Positions 6,708-33,815 of a stretch of 33,815 nucleotides of DNA are shown here, in pieces. The position numbers and the translations under genes are program-made. Source of the DNA: Saprospiraceae bacterium. GTDB lineage: Bacteria; Bacteroidota; Bacteroidia; Chitinophagales; Saprospiraceae. The stretch covers positions 1 to 33,815 of the forward strand of contig JAHQWA010000178.1 of assembly GCA_019634045.1 (NCBI GenBank). The letters are read 5' to 3'. Numbering within the stretch: the first letter of the stretch is position 1; every line of letters starts with the position of its first letter. Under the pieces are notes generated by a model. The model made no database searches and was not told the origin of the DNA. It saw only the letters and a list, made by a program, of their open reading frames with translations.

Positions 6708-6905
6708 AAGGTTGAGATACTGTTGGCAACACTATAATCACAGAAAACTCAATATATAATAACCTCATTATAAATCAAATTATTTCTCAATTTGCTAAGA
6801 TCCGCAGATCAGGTCTCACCATGCTTGCTCTTTTTCGGGACCTCCCATTTATTTTCTCCAGAACAAGATTGAGATATAGTATCTTTACCTTGAACATTTA
6901 ATTCT

Positions 6906-8411
6906 ATGAAGATTTTCTCTGCCGCTCAAATTCGACAATGGGACCAATTCACCATACAGAATGAGCCCATTTCCTCTTATGATCTCATGGAAAGGGCATC
7001 AACCAAATTCGTTGAGTGGTTCATTTCAAAATACCCTAATACGGATCAAGACATTTCAATCTTCTGCGGCAGCGGGAATAATGGCGGGGACGGATTTGCC
7101 GTCGCGCGTTTACTACACCAAGCCTTCTACCGAATTACTGTCTTTCAGTGTAAAATCGGGAAAGCTACTGAAGACTGCGAAAAAAATTATCAGCAGCTAA
7201 AGTCCCTACAGGCGGTTGAACTTCTATCCATACAAAAAGATGCCCCTCTACCAGAGCTCTCCAGTTCGGATTTAGTGATAGATGCCCTATTTGGCTCTGG
7301 CCTCAATCGTCCGATCAAGGGGTACTGGGCAAAACTAGTGGAACACATTAACCAGAGTTCTCGTAAAATTGTAGCGATTGATATCCCATCGGGGCTCTAC
7401 AGTGATCAATCTAGCTTAAATCAAGTAACAATAAAAGCTAAAGCTACGCTCAGTTTTGAAAGACCAAAACTGGCTTTTTTCTTCCCACAAAACTACGCTG
7501 CCATTGGGGAATGGGACCATACTTCGATCAGCTTGCATTCCATATTTGATCAGCAAACCGATAGTCAGTATCATTTAATCACTGAAGAATTAATCGGGAC
7601 CAAATTAAAGAGTAGAAAAAAGTTTGACCACAAGGGAACTCATGGCCATGCTTTATTGGTTGTAGGTAGTTATGGGAAGATTGGTGCAGGAGTTTTGGCG
7701 GCAAAAGCCTGTCTGCGAACGGGTGTGGGACTCCTAACTATCAATGTTCCTAAATGCGGTTATAGTATTCTACAAGGTCAGGTTCCGGAAGCCATGGTAA
7801 TAGCTGACCCAGAGGAGGAATTTTGGTCAAAGGCACCAGGAATTGATGGATATAAAGCGGTGGGTATCGGATGTGGCCTGGGTCAAGCTAGTTCATCAGC
7901 AGAAGCACTAAGGCAGTTGCTTGGATCTGCTACAAGACCTCTCGTCCTAGACGCTGATGCTTTAAACATAATTAGTCAAAACCCCAGTTGGTTAGATGAG
8001 ATTCCAAAGAATAGCATCCTCACCCCTCACCCAAAAGAATTTCAACGTCTCTTTGGAGCGATAAAGGATGATTTTGCTCGTCTAGATTTGCTTCGTACTA
8101 AGGCACGGGAGTATCAATTCATCATACTTTTGAAAGGGGCTCATACGGTTGTCGCCTTACCGGACGGGCACTGCTATTTTAACAATACCGGGAATCCAGG
8201 AATGGCAACAGGAGGTAGTGGTGATGTATTAACGGGAATCATTACCAGTTTGCTGGCACAAGGATATGCACCGGCGGATGCTACTGTGGTAGGTGTATTT
8301 CTTCATGGTAGTGCTGGTGATCTTGCCGCACAAGATATCAGTGAAAACGCATTGTTACCAAGTGACCTAATCAACTATATTGGAAAAGTATTTTTAAGCT
8401 TAAAGAAATAG
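6906..8411 (+). CDS. nnrD: Bifunctional NAD(P)H-hydrate epimerase / ADP-dependent NAD(P)H-hydrate dehydratase
   Basis: N-terminal YjeF domain (CGSGNNGGDGFAVARLL, AIDIPSGL) and C-terminal kinase-like domain (KGTHGHALLVVGSYGKIGAGVLAAKACLRTGVGLLT, TGNPGMATGGSGDVLTGIIT). Confidence 0.95.
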   Translation: MKIFSAAQIRQWDQFTIQNEPISSYDLMERASTKFVEWFISKYPNTDQDISIFCGSGNNGGDGFAVARLLHQAFYRITVFQCKIGKATEDCEKNYQQLKSLQAVELLSIQKDAPLPELSSSDLVIDALFGSGLNRPIKGYWAKLVEHINQSSRKIVAIDIPSGLYSDQSSLNQVTIKAKATLSFERPKLAFFFPQNYAAIGEWDHTSISLHSIFDQQTDSQYHLITEELIGTKLKSRKKFDHKGTHGHALLVVGSYGKIGAGVLAAKACLRTGVGLLTINVPKCGYSILQGQVPEAMVIADPEEEFWSKAPGIDGYKAVGIGCGLGQASSSAEALRQLLGSATRPLVLDADALNIISQNPSWLDEIPKNSILTPHPKEFQRLFGAIKDDFARLDLLRTKAREYQFIILLKGAHTVVALPDGHCYFNNTGNPGMATGGSGDVLTGIITSLLAQGYAPADATVVGVFLHGSAGDLAAQDISENALLPSDLINYIGKVFLSLKK

Positions 8412-9939: not shown

Positions 9940-11643
9940 TTATTTTATGTAAAGATTGAATTCGACACGACGGTTTAGTTTCCGACCGGCAGCAGTGGTA
10001 TTGTCACCGATTGGTTGATCTTCGCCAAACCCTTCGTAATTCATACGGGTTTTGTCGATGCCATTTTTAGATAAGTAGTTGAAACAGGAGCGAGCACGAC
10101 GTCGAGAAAGATCTAAATTTAGTTTATCATTTCCACGGCTGTCGGTATGTCCCCCAATTTTTAGTGAGTAGTACGGATATTCCTCTAAAATGTTCGCAAT
10201 TTCCTCAAGAGTTTTCAAAGAATTTTTCTTAATGACATCACTTCCTGTCTCAAACTCAATGGCCTTGGAGGCAAAGGTAAGCACTTTCTTGGCTTCTTCA
10301 GAAATATCAGGGCAACCTTCTTTCGACTTTAAGCCTGGTAAATCAGGGCACTTATCTGCTAAGTCGGCAACTCCATCACGATCCTGATCAGGGCAACCAT
10401 TTGCTCCTAACAAACCAGGAACATCAGGGCAAAGATCATCACTATCAGGGGTTCCATCCTGGTCTGTATCGGTAAACAGACAGCCGTAACATTCTGCATA
10501 GCCTGCTTGATCTGGACAAGAATCTGCCCAGTCTGCAACTCCATCTCCATCCGCATCGGGGCATCCGTTCAGTTCCAATAGACCTGCGATAAATGGACAA
10601 GTATCCTCTTCATCTGCAATTCCATCTTTATCAGAATCGGGACATCCATTCGTTGCTTCCGTGCCTGGCTCATCAGGACATTGGTCCAAGATATCATTTA
10701 CAAGGTCACTATCACGATCCGGGCACCCATTCATAGCAAGAGTGCCTTTTTGATCTGGACATACGTCCTCTAGGTCTTCAACCCCATCACCATCACGATC
10801 TGGGCACCCATAGGCTGAATAGCTTCCAGCCACACGGGGACACTTATCCTCCTTATCTACTATACCGTCATTATCAGCGTCTTTCGGGCCAAACCTAAAA
10901 GAATAGGTTAGTCCACCGAAAGTATACCAATCGTTTTTTTCGGGATTCCCCGTATAGCTGATTCCATCGATGTAATCGGTAAAGGCAGTTCTTAGACCTA
11001 ATTCTAGGCTTATGACAGCCTTTTTCCCCAAATCACGTTTAAGTCCGAGCCCGATAGGTAGACTCAAGCCAGATTGTGTTCCTCCATTTGGCCTGTCTTT
11101 CTGGATTCGTTCAAACCATGTCTCCCGAGATGCCAAAGAAAAGTCAGGTTGAGCATCCCAGAATGTCATACCTATTCCGGCAAAGATGTAGGGTGAAAAT
11201 ATTTTTCGGAACCGATGGTCTTCACGATATCTTCTTTTACCAAATGGTTCCCAGGTGAGAACTAAACTAGCCTCCGTTATTTCTGTGTTAAAGCTGAAAC
11301 TTCTCTTAATCGTCTCAGGATCATCAAAGTTACTATCTCGGCCTGTTAGTCGGGATCGGACCCCTCCTAATCGAATGCCCCATTCATTCCCAAACACAAA
11401 AGTGCCACTCAAACCGTAAGCAGCCTGAGTTTCACGAAAGAAAGGGAACTTCGTTTCTACCAAGTCTCCCAAATAATTGGCTCCCCCTCCAAAAAAGCCA
11501 AGCTCAAATTGAGCCTGCGAATTGGCATTCATTGCCAATAGCAAAATAATTGTGGTGTAGTAATACCTTCTCATTTCCAACACTTTTATACCCCAGAATG
11601 ATTTCTCAAAACAAAAAACGTTCTTTAAGACCATGATCTGCAT
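9940..11643 (-). CDS. OmpA-family protein: N-terminal beta-barrel, thrombospondin type 3 repeats, C-terminal OmpA peptidoglycan-binding domain
   Basis: Repeats such as DKDGIADEEDTCPFIAGLLELNGCPDADGDGVADWADSCPD; C-terminal LKIGGHTDSRGNDKLNLDLSRRRARSCFNYLSKNGIDKTRMNYEGFGEDQPI. The real start may be the internal MRRYYYTT. Confidence 0.93.
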   Translation of the reverse strand: MQIMVLKNVFCFEKSFWGIKVLEMRRYYYTTIILLLAMNANSQAQFELGFFGGGANYLGDLVETKFPFFRETQAAYGLSGTFVFGNEWGIRLGGVRSRLTGRDSNFDDPETIKRSFSFNTEITEASLVLTWEPFGKRRYREDHRFRKIFSPYIFAGIGMTFWDAQPDFSLASRETWFERIQKDRPNGGTQSGLSLPIGLGLKRDLGKKAVISLELGLRTAFTDYIDGISYTGNPEKNDWYTFGGLTYSFRFGPKDADNDGIVDKEDKCPRVAGSYSAYGCPDRDGDGVEDLEDVCPDQKGTLAMNGCPDRDSDLVNDILDQCPDEPGTEATNGCPDSDKDGIADEEDTCPFIAGLLELNGCPDADGDGVADWADSCPDQAGYAECYGCLFTDTDQDGTPDSDDLCPDVPGLLGANGCPDQDRDGVADLADKCPDLPGLKSKEGCPDISEEAKKVLTFASKAIEFETGSDVIKKNSLKTLEEIANILEEYPYYSLKIGGHTDSRGNDKLNLDLSRRRARSCFNYLSKNGIDKTRMNYEGFGEDQPIGDNTTAAGRKLNRRVEFNLYIK

Positions 11644-30505: not shown

Positions 30506-31534
30506 ATGGCACCAGTAAATCCATCAAAACAGTCAAATCAATGGAGTAGAAGAGAATTTATTAAGTATTCTGCTGCCCTGGGGGCAGTGATGAGCCTCCC
30601 TATTGGTTTACAGTCGATGAGTCAGGACAAATGGGGTCCGGTCCTAGCAAAACGACAGCTAGGTAGTACGGGCATTGATGTTACCTGTTTTGGAATTGGG
30701 GGAGGCGCATTTGATGCAGATTATGCCAAATCTGAAGAGATCATAGAAAAGGCGATACAGAAGGGGTGTAGATTTTTTGAAACGGCCAGAGTATATGGTA
30801 GAGGAGCTAGTGAAGAAGGTTTTGGTAAATATCTAACTCCTAAGTATCGAAAGGACATCACCTTGATGACCAAAACCCATGCCAAGGATGCAGATACCTT
30901 AAACAGAGAATTAGATGAATCGCTAACAGCGCTCAATACCGATCATGTAGACATTTACTTGATGCACGCCATTGGTAGTCCAGAAGATTTCGAGCGGCGG
31001 CGGAAAGGCGGCGTATTGGATGCGGCGATCAAAGCCAAAGCGGAAGGTAAAATCAAGCATATTGGTTTTAGTGGCCATGCCGACCCGGCAGCCCATAGCT
31101 ATGTTATCGATCAAAACATTGACGATATCGAGGTAGTACTCATGCCTATTAATGTCGCTGATCCTACTTGGAAGAGTTTTATCTTAAATACCTTACCTAA
31201 AGCCAATGCCAGAAATATGGGGGTTATTGGGATGAAGATATTTGCTGGTGGAGGATTCTTTGGAGGAGATGTGGTTTGGGGTCGAGATCGAGGAGCGAAG
31301 CGCGATCTGGTCATTCCTAGATTGATCAGCACAGAGGAAGCACAGCATTTTGCTTTATCCTTACCCATCACCACTACCACCATTGGTTGCCATGATGCGC
31401 AACATGTGGAGGAGAACATTAATAATGTAATGACTTTCAATGGTATGAATGAGGAGGATAGACAAGCGTTAATTGAAAAGGTTACCGCTACTGCTTTGAG
31501 TAATACTATCGAACACTATAAGTCAGCAGATTAA
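30506..31534 (+). CDS. Aldo/keto reductase family protein with Tat-type signal
   Basis: WSRREFIKYSAALGAVMSLPIG; KRQLGSTGIDVTCFGIGGGAFDADYAKSEEIIEKAIQKGCRFFETARVYGRGASEEGFG; DHVDIYLMHAI. Confidence 0.93.
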   Translation: MAPVNPSKQSNQWSRREFIKYSAALGAVMSLPIGLQSMSQDKWGPVLAKRQLGSTGIDVTCFGIGGGAFDADYAKSEEIIEKAIQKGCRFFETARVYGRGASEEGFGKYLTPKYRKDITLMTKTHAKDADTLNRELDESLTALNTDHVDIYLMHAIGSPEDFERRRKGGVLDAAIKAKAEGKIKHIGFSGHADPAAHSYVIDQNIDDIEVVLMPINVADPTWKSFILNTLPKANARNMGVIGMKIFAGGGFFGGDVVWGRDRGAKRDLVIPRLISTEEAQHFALSLPITTTTIGCHDAQHVEENINNVMTFNGMNEEDRQALIEKVTATALSNTIEHYKSAD

Positions 31535-31540
31535 CTATAG

Positions 31541-32338
31541 ATGCAGGAACTTAGTCAATTAAAGCAGTGGTTTGCTCAGCATACGTCAAGCATTACCGCT
31601 TTTTCTGGTGGTGTAGATTCAGCCCTAGTTTTATACGTCTCTCACTTGGTCTTAGGGGAAAAGGCCATAGGATTAATTTCTAATTCTGAAAGTTTAAAAT
31701 CGAAGGATTTTCAGGTAGCCTTGGACTTTTGTCAACAATATGGAATCCACCTTGAGGTAATCAAAACACAGGAATTACAAGACCCTAACTATTTTCAAAA
31801 CCCTGCTAATCGTTGTTTTTATTGCAAGAATCACCTTTACGAAGCCATGATTGAGGTTGTCCAATCTAGATACCCTGGATACGTTCTGCTCAATGGTACG
31901 AATCACGACGACCTTGGCGATTATCGTCCAGGCATCCAAGCATCCAAAGTGCACAGTATTGTTTCCCCTTTAGCTGAATTGGGCTTCACTAAAAAAACCG
32001 TAATTGAATTAGCGGCCTACCTGGGCCTACCCAATGCTTTCAAGCCGCCTAGTCCTTGCTTAAGTTCCAGAATACCCTATGGAACTGCTGTGACCGAAGC
32101 ACGCCTAAAGCAAATTGAAAAGGCGGAATACCTTCTCCAACGATACGGCTTTGAACAAGTGCGGGTACGACATCATGGTAGCCGGGCCTCCATTGAAGTT
32201 CCTACAGGAGAGGTTGCGAAATTGCGGCTACAGCTTCCGGCAATTAAGGAAGGATTACAACTCCTTGGTTTCGAAGTCGTAGAGATCGATGAGGAAGGTT
32301 TTGTTTCAGGAAAACTAAATCGAGCCTTGCATGAGTAA
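31541..32338 (+). CDS. larE: ATP-dependent sacrificial sulfur transferase LarE
   Basis: PP-loop SITAFSGGVDSALVLYVS; NRCFYCKNHLYEAM; GTNHDDLGDYRPGIQAS; FKPPSPCLSSRIPYGTAVT. Confidence 0.96.
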   Translation: MQELSQLKQWFAQHTSSITAFSGGVDSALVLYVSHLVLGEKAIGLISNSESLKSKDFQVALDFCQQYGIHLEVIKTQELQDPNYFQNPANRCFYCKNHLYEAMIEVVQSRYPGYVLLNGTNHDDLGDYRPGIQASKVHSIVSPLAELGFTKKTVIELAAYLGLPNAFKPPSPCLSSRIPYGTAVTEARLKQIEKAEYLLQRYGFEQVRVRHHGSRASIEVPTGEVAKLRLQLPAIKEGLQLLGFEVVEIDEEGFVSGKLNRALHE

Positions 32339-32984
32339 AGCTTTTGAACTGGACGAGGACCGTGAAAACCGCCTGGGTTTTGAGGAAGTCATTTACGGCG
32401 CTGCTAAGGATATTTCCGCACTCTCTGATCTTCTCGTAGAACTCCAAGAGGCCAAGAAAAATGCTTTGGTTACCAAAGTTCAAAGAGAAAAGGGAGAGGT
32501 TTTACTATCCCTATTTCCATCTGCTTTTTTCCATCCCCCTTCGGGAATCTTTATGCTCCAGGCCAAAACGGCGGCGTCAACAGATCAACCCAAAATAGCC
32601 GTAATAACGGCGGGTACTTCAGATATGGGTGTGGCTTACGAAGCCTTTTATACCCTACAATACATGGATGTGCCAGTTGATATAATCCAAGATATTGGTG
32701 TCGCTGGAATTCATCGTTTGTTAAATAAATTGGAACAGCTACAAACCTACAAAATCTTGATCGTCATTGCCGGCTTTGAGGGAGCACTACCAACCGTCGT
32801 TGGAGGCCTACTCCCCCAACCCATTATTGCTGTACCCACCTCGACCGGGTACGGTACAGCAAAAGCTGGAGAAACGGCTCTACATGCGATGCTCACCAGT
32901 TGTGCCAATGGAATTACGGTCGTAAATATTGACAACGGCTATGGCGCTGCTATGAGTGCCCTTCGAATACTAAAAATCATCTGA
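32331..32984 (+). CDS. larB: Nickel pincer cofactor biosynthesis protein LarB
   Basis: LDEDRENRLGFEEVIYGAAKD; IAVITAGTSDMGVAYEAFYTLQYMDVPVDIIQDIGVAGIHRLL; FEGALPTVVGGLLPQPIIAVPTSTGYGTAKAGETALHAMLTSCANGITVVNIDNGYGAA. Overlaps larE by 8 nt. Confidence 0.97.
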   Translation: MSKAFELDEDRENRLGFEEVIYGAAKDISALSDLLVELQEAKKNALVTKVQREKGEVLLSLFPSAFFHPPSGIFMLQAKTAASTDQPKIAVITAGTSDMGVAYEAFYTLQYMDVPVDIIQDIGVAGIHRLLNKLEQLQTYKILIVIAGFEGALPTVVGGLLPQPIIAVPTSTGYGTAKAGETALHAMLTSCANGITVVNIDNGYGAAMSALRILKII

Positions 32985-33779
32985 ATGAACAATATCTACA
33001 TTGAGGCCTTCTCTGGGTTGTCAGGAAATATGTTTTTGAGTGCCTTTAGTCAATTGCTTGGCAAATTAGAGGATTTAAAGGAACTACCAAAGCAATTACA
33101 TTTGCCTGACGCCAAGGTCGAAATTGCTATGGTGAATAAGAATGGAATCAATTGTCCTTATGTAGAGGTAATTGACTTAAATGAAGGAAAAGAGGCTGCC
33201 TCTTCTTCTCATCATGAACATCACCACCACCATCATCATCACCACGGAAGGCATCTCAAAGATATCCAGAAAATTATTGATGAAGCGCAGATCTCCGCTG
33301 GTGCCAAGCAGATAGCCCATGAGATCTTTCTCCTGATAGGTAAAGCAGAATCTCATATTCATCAAATTCCCTTAGAAAAGATTCATTTCCATGAGATTAG
33401 TGCCGTAGACTCCATCGTCGATATTGTAGGCAATGCCATTATGATTGATCAATTGGGTGTACAGCAAGTAATCTGTAGCCCGATCTGCACAGGATTTGGA
33501 ATGGTTAACACCCAGCATGGCATGCTTCCTGTCCCAGCCCCTGCAACAGCGGAACTCCTACAGGGTATGCCCACCTATGCGGGCGAAGAAGCCGGTGAAA
33601 AGATTACACCTACGGGGGCTGCCATTCTTAAGTATCTCCAGCCATCCTTTGTCTCCAGCACTTACACCACAAAAAAGATCGCTTATGGACCCGGAAAAAA
33701 AGATTTCCACTACCCTAATGTGGTACGGATTTCCCTTCTCGATGCTGCTCCAATAAAAAAAAAGTCTACTTACAACTAG
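32985..33779 (+). CDS. larC: Nickel insertion protein LarC, N-terminal part (LarC1)
   Basis: IYIEAFSGLSGNMFLSAFSQLLG; His-rich HHEHHHHHHHHHGRH; IHFHEISAVDSIVDIVGNAIMIDQLGV; TPTGAAILKYLQPSF. Zero-frame stops at 33777-33779. Confidence 0.95.
   Translation: MNNIYIEAFSGLSGNMFLSAFSQLLGKLEDLKELPKQLHLPDAKVEIAMVNKNGINCPYVEVIDLNEGKEAASSSHHEHHHHHHHHHGRHLKDIQKIIDEAQISAGAKQIAHEIFLLIGKAESHIHQIPLEKIHFHEISAVDSIVDIVGNAIMIDQLGVQQVICSPICTGFGMVNTQHGMLPVPAPATAELLQGMPTYAGEEAGEKITPTGAAILKYLQPSFVSSTYTTKKIAYGPGKKDFHYPNVVRISLLDAAPIKKKSTYN
33755..33764 (+). promoter_or_regulatory. Putative recoding (frameshift) site A9G joining LarC1 to LarC2
   Basis: ATA AAA AAA AAG; -1 frame continues KKKVYLQLESSIDDMSPEFL to the window end. 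Confidence 0.8.
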
Positions 33780-33815
33780 AAAGCTCCATTGATGATATGT
33801 CTCCTGAGTTCCTAG
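33755..33815 (+). CDS. larC: LarC2 segment (partial, -1 frame, continues past the window)
   Basis: VYLQLESSIDDMSPEFL matches the conserved LarC C-terminal-domain entry motif (LExxIDDMxxE). No start codon between the upstream in-frame TAA (33716-33718) and this motif. Confidence 0.8.

Follow-up and report, generated by a model that had tools for sequence, protein, structure and literature searches.

We conclude that larC of this Saprospiraceae/Lewinella-type bacterium is very probably a functional recoded gene, read through by slippage of either RNA polymerase or the ribosome. The gene consists of two overlapping open reading frames, with LarC2 in the −1 frame and without a start of its own. 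The split, the conserved A-run at the junction, the conserved direction of the shift and an intact, conserved LarC2 are established here. From the sequences we infer slippage in the source organism, the dominance of the polymerase in that slippage and the use of both products. Comparison among relatives indicates that the frame break is kept by selection, and slippage on the A-run probably carries expression across the break, as known for larC in other bacteria.

The window (33,815 nt) is the whole stretch of DNA analysed and comprises the entire contig C108 of the source genome (G000; 10.16 Mb, 644 contigs), so position 33815 is also the contig end. The features of the locus are the following.

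31541 to 32338, plus strand: larE (TIGR00268 LarE, 2.6e-80), upstream of larB
32331 to 32984, plus strand: larB (NF033503 LarB, 7e-77), directly upstream of larC
32985 to 33779, plus strand: larC zero-frame open reading frame (LarC1, 264 aa), matching PF01969 and TIGR00299
33210 to 33248, plus strand: His-rich stretch HHEHHHHHHHHHG of LarC1, highly variable in length across relatives
33719 to 33815, plus strand: −1 frame, free of stops as far as the contig end and encoding KKKVYLQLESSIDDMSPEFL from about 33755
33755 to 33763, plus strand: A9 run, the candidate slippage site, followed by G at 33764 and present as A9 at the same site in the congener G003
33758 to 33764, plus strand: in-frame A_AAA_AAG heptamer within the A9 run (zero frame ATA AAA AAA AAG)
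33777 to 33779, plus strand: zero-frame TAG stop of LarC1

LarC1 matched PF01969 at 6.3e-77, covering positions 1-238 of the 375 in the profile, and TIGR00299 (nickel_LarC1) at 1.9e-60, scoring 203 bits where the cut-off is 90. By these matches the product is the N-terminal part of the nickel-pincer cofactor nickel insertion protein, with CTP-dependent nickel insertion as its putative activity. The gene order larE-larB-larC is preserved among relatives, and the operon is intact here. The His-rich stretch of LarC1 is a possible nickel store. Immediately upstream of the three genes is an aldo/keto reductase (30506-31534) with a weak TAT-type signal (PF10518, under its cut-off). A homologue adjoins larEBC in the Flavobacteriaceae loci L045, L046, L048, L049 and L050 and in the Saprospiraceae loci L067 and L075, and the reductase may be part of the lar pathway. 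LarA (PF09861) was not found in six larC-bearing genomes (G000, G003, G463, G603, G517 and G500), and G652, G712 and G554 gave weak matches only, of about 430 aa.

The zero frame passes through ATA-AAA-AAA-AAG and ends in ...AAPIKKKSTYN followed by TAG; the initial annotation had placed this frame and its stop at 33777 correctly to the base. It had also given the A9G run correctly, although it described the site only as ATA-AAA-AAA-AAG and left the canonical A_AAA_AAG heptamer unnamed. The −1 frame begins after TAA at 33716-33718 and has no stop up to the last base of the contig, and KKKVYLQLESSIDDMSPEFL is the start of the conserved LarC2 domain. The first ATG, GTG or TTG of this frame is the ATG at 33797-33799, within the IDDM motif. 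Read directly, the sequence thus bore out the earlier statement that LarC2 has no start of its own, and an independent LarC2 start was rejected because no ATG, GTG or TTG precedes 33797. The predicted −1 junction reads KKKVYLQ..., and its tryptic form starts VYLQLESSIDDMSPEFL.

The A9 run is the sole A or T run of at least nine within the window. Run lengths in about 513 kb of sampled coding sequence from the source genome were compared with expectations from synonymous-codon shuffles of the same sequence. A-runs of at least nine were observed 3 times against 12.2 expected, and T-runs of at least nine 0 times against 7.8; for runs of eight, the counts were 11 against 24.9 (A8) and 3 against 18.8 (T8). 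The nine-A choice is rare for Lys-Lys-Lys: among 57 KKK triplets counted in these genes, 3 are encoded by AAA-AAA-AAR. Two further A9 runs of the source genome sit inside unbroken genes.

C108 ends 52 nt past the A9 run. The expectation that an open LarC2 frame continues past 33815 was borne out in part: searching the source genome for the family located the remaining LarC2 on the minus strand of contig C444 at 10426-10794, where it matches PF01969 positions 271-372, with about 35 nt, by homology to the congener, unread between the two pieces. The final 59 nt of C444 (L008:10795-10853) are an exact copy of window positions 6888-6946, which places a chimeric contig end inside larC2 and makes a direct join of C108 to C444 impossible. 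LarC2 of the source genome was read in part only, and the complete LarC2 was taken from the congener.

The congener (G003; contig CAJXUM010000040 of an uncultured Lewinella MAG) is another species of the same genus and was independently assembled. It has the same A9G, the same frame break four codons ahead of TAG, and the matching LarC2 motif KKKAFVQIETAIDDMSAEFL in its −1 frame. Early stops in the downstream −1 frame had been named initially as grounds for refuting recoding; LarC2 of the congener is complete and open, and matches PF01969 positions 237-371. Between the two species, LarC1 has a pS of 0.89 and a pN of 0.18, and in LarC2 dS is saturated with no internal stop. Identity is 73% for LarC1 and 47% for LarC2, which evolves faster in this genus. 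The end of the congener contig (L007:3983-4017) resembles a leftover Nextera-type adaptor.

Nine of 398 genomes in the family carry larC, which is split in six (G000, G003, G463, G603, G652 and G712) and fused in three (G500, G517 and G554). A seventh split larC is found in G1135 (matches RFHT01000792), from a different family of the same class. All seven split genes come from draft assemblies, six of them labelled MAGs. At the junction G000, G003, G463 and G1135 have A9, and G603, G652 and G712 have A10; every one of the seven has LarC2 in the −1 frame. According to lineage, the first A of the run falls at codon position 3, 1 or 2, giving three phases relative to the zero frame. An alignment of larC across relatives, proposed in the initial annotation as a check, thus found both the A-run and the frame break conserved in the seven split Bacteroidota genes. 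The congener and the other split genes agree with its view that larC is split, that the shift is −1 and that recoding is required.

All other larC genes fetched from Bacteroidota and Verrucomicrobiota are fused, and none has a run of at least nine at the linker except those of G517 and L082, apparently a twin record of G517, which keep an A10 in frame; in G517, stops follow soon after the A10 in both other frames. The fused genes of G500 and G554, of the same family, and those of Flavobacteriaceae are without an A9 run, and the longest A-runs in the Flavobacteriaceae linkers are 3 to 7. Relatives with an uninterrupted larC, regarded at first as a refutation, therefore exist (Flavobacteriaceae, G500 and G554). 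They do not refute recoding, because the run is absent in them and the congener keeps both run and break. In a tree of LarC1, five changes are needed to account for the split state, three of them forced by strongly supported branches, and the G000 and G003 genes form the sister group of fused genes from Flavobacteriaceae. Since split genes are sister to fused, run-less ones, the simplest history is a joint origin of run and break, on more than one occasion.

Among Bacillota, twelve genomes in which LarC2 is adjacent, picked for split family matches and not for any A-run, have A9 (n = 10), A10 (n = 1) or A11 (n = 1), and all need a −1 shift. Lactiplantibacillus plantarum plasmids have an A10C-TAA junction with LarC2 in the −1 frame. 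All 20 start-less overlapping splits (seven Bacteroidota, twelve Bacillota and L. plantarum) therefore have a run of at least nine and need −1. No run is present where LarC2 lies distant (L181 and L188). Niallia taxi (L169) was rejected as a slippage case and serves as a contrast, because its larC is split without an A-run and its LarC2 frame has its own ATG between the two parts. Near-identical lactobacillus lar plasmids have either A10 with a split larC (L166, L213, L214, L217 and L218) or A11 with a fused one (L165, L215, L216 and L219), and both states occur among near-identical L. paracasei plasmids. A single A at this site thus toggles larC between the two forms. Fused genes keeping A10 or A11 in frame are thus found in two lineages, G517 and the L. 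paracasei lar plasmids.

Could the break be a homopolymer error of sequencing or assembly, the true gene being an uninterrupted A10? The assembly is a draft, the contig ends shortly beyond the run and the end of the partner contig is chimeric. However, the independently assembled congener shows the same A9 and the same break, a −1 shift is needed in each of five more split genes, of which three have A10, the two other A9 runs of the source genome lie in unbroken genes, and fused relatives are without such a run. On the strength of the congener and these five genes, error was rejected, and we consider it very unlikely. We give a similarly low probability to larC being a decaying, frame-lost pseudogene. 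The failure to find LarA in the source genome or the congener, and the faster evolution of LarC2 relative to LarC1, would fit decay, but both parts remain open despite saturated synonymous change, the larE-larB-larC operon is intact, and G500 and G517 have fused larC and likewise no LarA was found in them. The identical break retained in the congener, together with the five further split genes, led us to reject a pseudogene. The A10 and A11 forms of the L. paracasei and L. plantarum lar plasmids would fit a contingency locus, at which replication slippage would flip the run length and leave larC fused in some cells and split in others. Contingency loci usually target surface genes. larC is not a surface gene, and A9 is identical in two congeners despite their great divergence, which makes such switching highly improbable here.

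On balance, we lean towards RNA polymerase slippage by one extra A as the main route to full-length LarC, possibly in a mixture with ribosomal slippage. Unslipped messages would give LarC1 of 264 aa with the C-terminus KKKSTYN. Polymerase slippage would add one A, and the A10 transcript would hold LarC1 and LarC2 in one frame; full-length LarC, made by the slip on A9 into the −1 frame, would insert nickel into the nickel-pincer nucleotide. The ribosome may contribute at the same A_AAA_AAG site. Polymerase slippage is favoured by the run of at least nine in all 20 split genes, whereas seven would suffice for the ribosome, and by the different phases of the run relative to the zero frame. No conserved downstream hairpin was found in the six Bacteroidota sites folded, where structure was no better than in shuffles (z from +0.9 to −1.5); in the window itself only about 50 nt could be read downstream. 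A and T runs of at least eight are depleted on both strands of coding sequence, as expected if a polymerase slips on them. Runs usually become prone to slippage at nine A or nine T, and from this length many bacteria show selection against them, which has been ascribed to transcriptional slippage (PMC1088944). In Thermus dnaX, polymerase slippage at nine adds A's (PMC5009743), which would give exactly the −1 frame of larC. Against polymerase slippage, the depletion of long runs could also stem from replication slippage, the Bacteroidota split genes come from draft assemblies, and LarC2 here is partly read.

The main alternative, programmed −1 ribosomal frameshifting alone, would occur on A_AAA_AAG or on A_AAA_AAA one codon earlier, with the mRNA remaining A9. 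We regard it as a serious though lesser possibility. A canonical X_XXY_YYZ heptamer is in the zero frame, and any A9 also holds an in-frame A_AAA_AAA; the zero-frame stop is at most five codons away. The L. plantarum site has a stable downstream hairpin (z of −3.3 for 60 nt), which speaks against the polymerase, and LarC of L. plantarum is reportedly made by ribosomal frameshifting. All 20 split genes share one direction, and in PMC3711429 a constant direction of shift is taken as a mark of ribosomal frameshifting. The DUF111 reporter result described below is compatible with either mechanism. In contrast, the bare heptamer was never seen, the run being always at least A9 and in three phases; the Bacteroidota sites show no downstream structure beyond shuffles; and no common Shine-Dalgarno-like element was seen by eye upstream of the run in these sites. 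The tRNA-Lys content, one isoacceptor or two, bears on ribosomal slipperiness; the 626 kb sampled from the source genome contained no tRNA-Lys gene. Polymerase slippage, which the initial annotation had raised and given equal standing, is therefore ranked modestly ahead of ribosomal slippage, a choice that sequence alone cannot decide.

A more tentative proposal is that A-run slippage in the linker between LarC1 and LarC2 evolved convergently, under selection, as a device setting the LarC1:LarC ratio. It would have been acquired several times within Bacteroidota and independently in Bacillota, in every case with at least A9 and a need for one extra A. Under this proposal the short LarC1 would have its own function, as suggested by the genes that keep the run with a fused default frame (G517 and the L. 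paracasei lar plasmids). If so, the short LarC1 could serve, for example, as a nickel store through its His-rich stretch, or as a partner subunit. The natural series of A9, A10 and A11 in split, fused and fused-with-run genes allows polymerase and ribosomal slippage to be distinguished, and makes it possible to test what the short LarC1 is for. Solved structures cover the LarC2 domain and full-length LarC (6bwo, 12bi). Automatic annotation of such genomes is likely to call LarC1 and to miss or truncate LarC2.

We take DUF111 to be the former name of the Pfam family PF01969 (LarC). PMC3711429 names DUF111 as a new programmed-frameshift family in 2013 and describes a cluster with two open reading frames at an A-rich site and reporter recoding of up to 39%. 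That cluster was measured in an E. coli reporter, whereas the present case is known from a Bacteroidota draft genome. Recoding of larC was thus already known, and its extension to a group of Bacteroidota is well supported. L. plantarum larC1/larC2 (L166, NZ_CP055122) is likewise interrupted by a frame break at a long run of A (GAA AAA AAA AAC TAA, A10) with LarC2 in −1. The long A-run is therefore no point of difference, contrary to the contrast first drawn with Lactiplantibacillus. L. plantarum differs in having A10C rather than A9G, a stop straight after the run and a strong downstream hairpin, none being seen here in the roughly 50 nt read; its split is presumably of separate origin. Magnesium chelatase genes (PMC3711429, PMC5009743) are likewise split, carry a metal chelatase annotation, need a −1 shift and have runs of A7-A11 whose efficiency rises with run length in E. 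coli, but belong to a protein family unrelated to LarC. Thermus thermophilus dnaX shares with larC a run of nine A/T at which extra A's in the mRNA shift the frame, and shares with the fused A10 gene of G517 the stops soon after the run in both other frames. The two genes differ in their default product, which is the long form when dnaX messages are unslipped and would be the short form for larC here.
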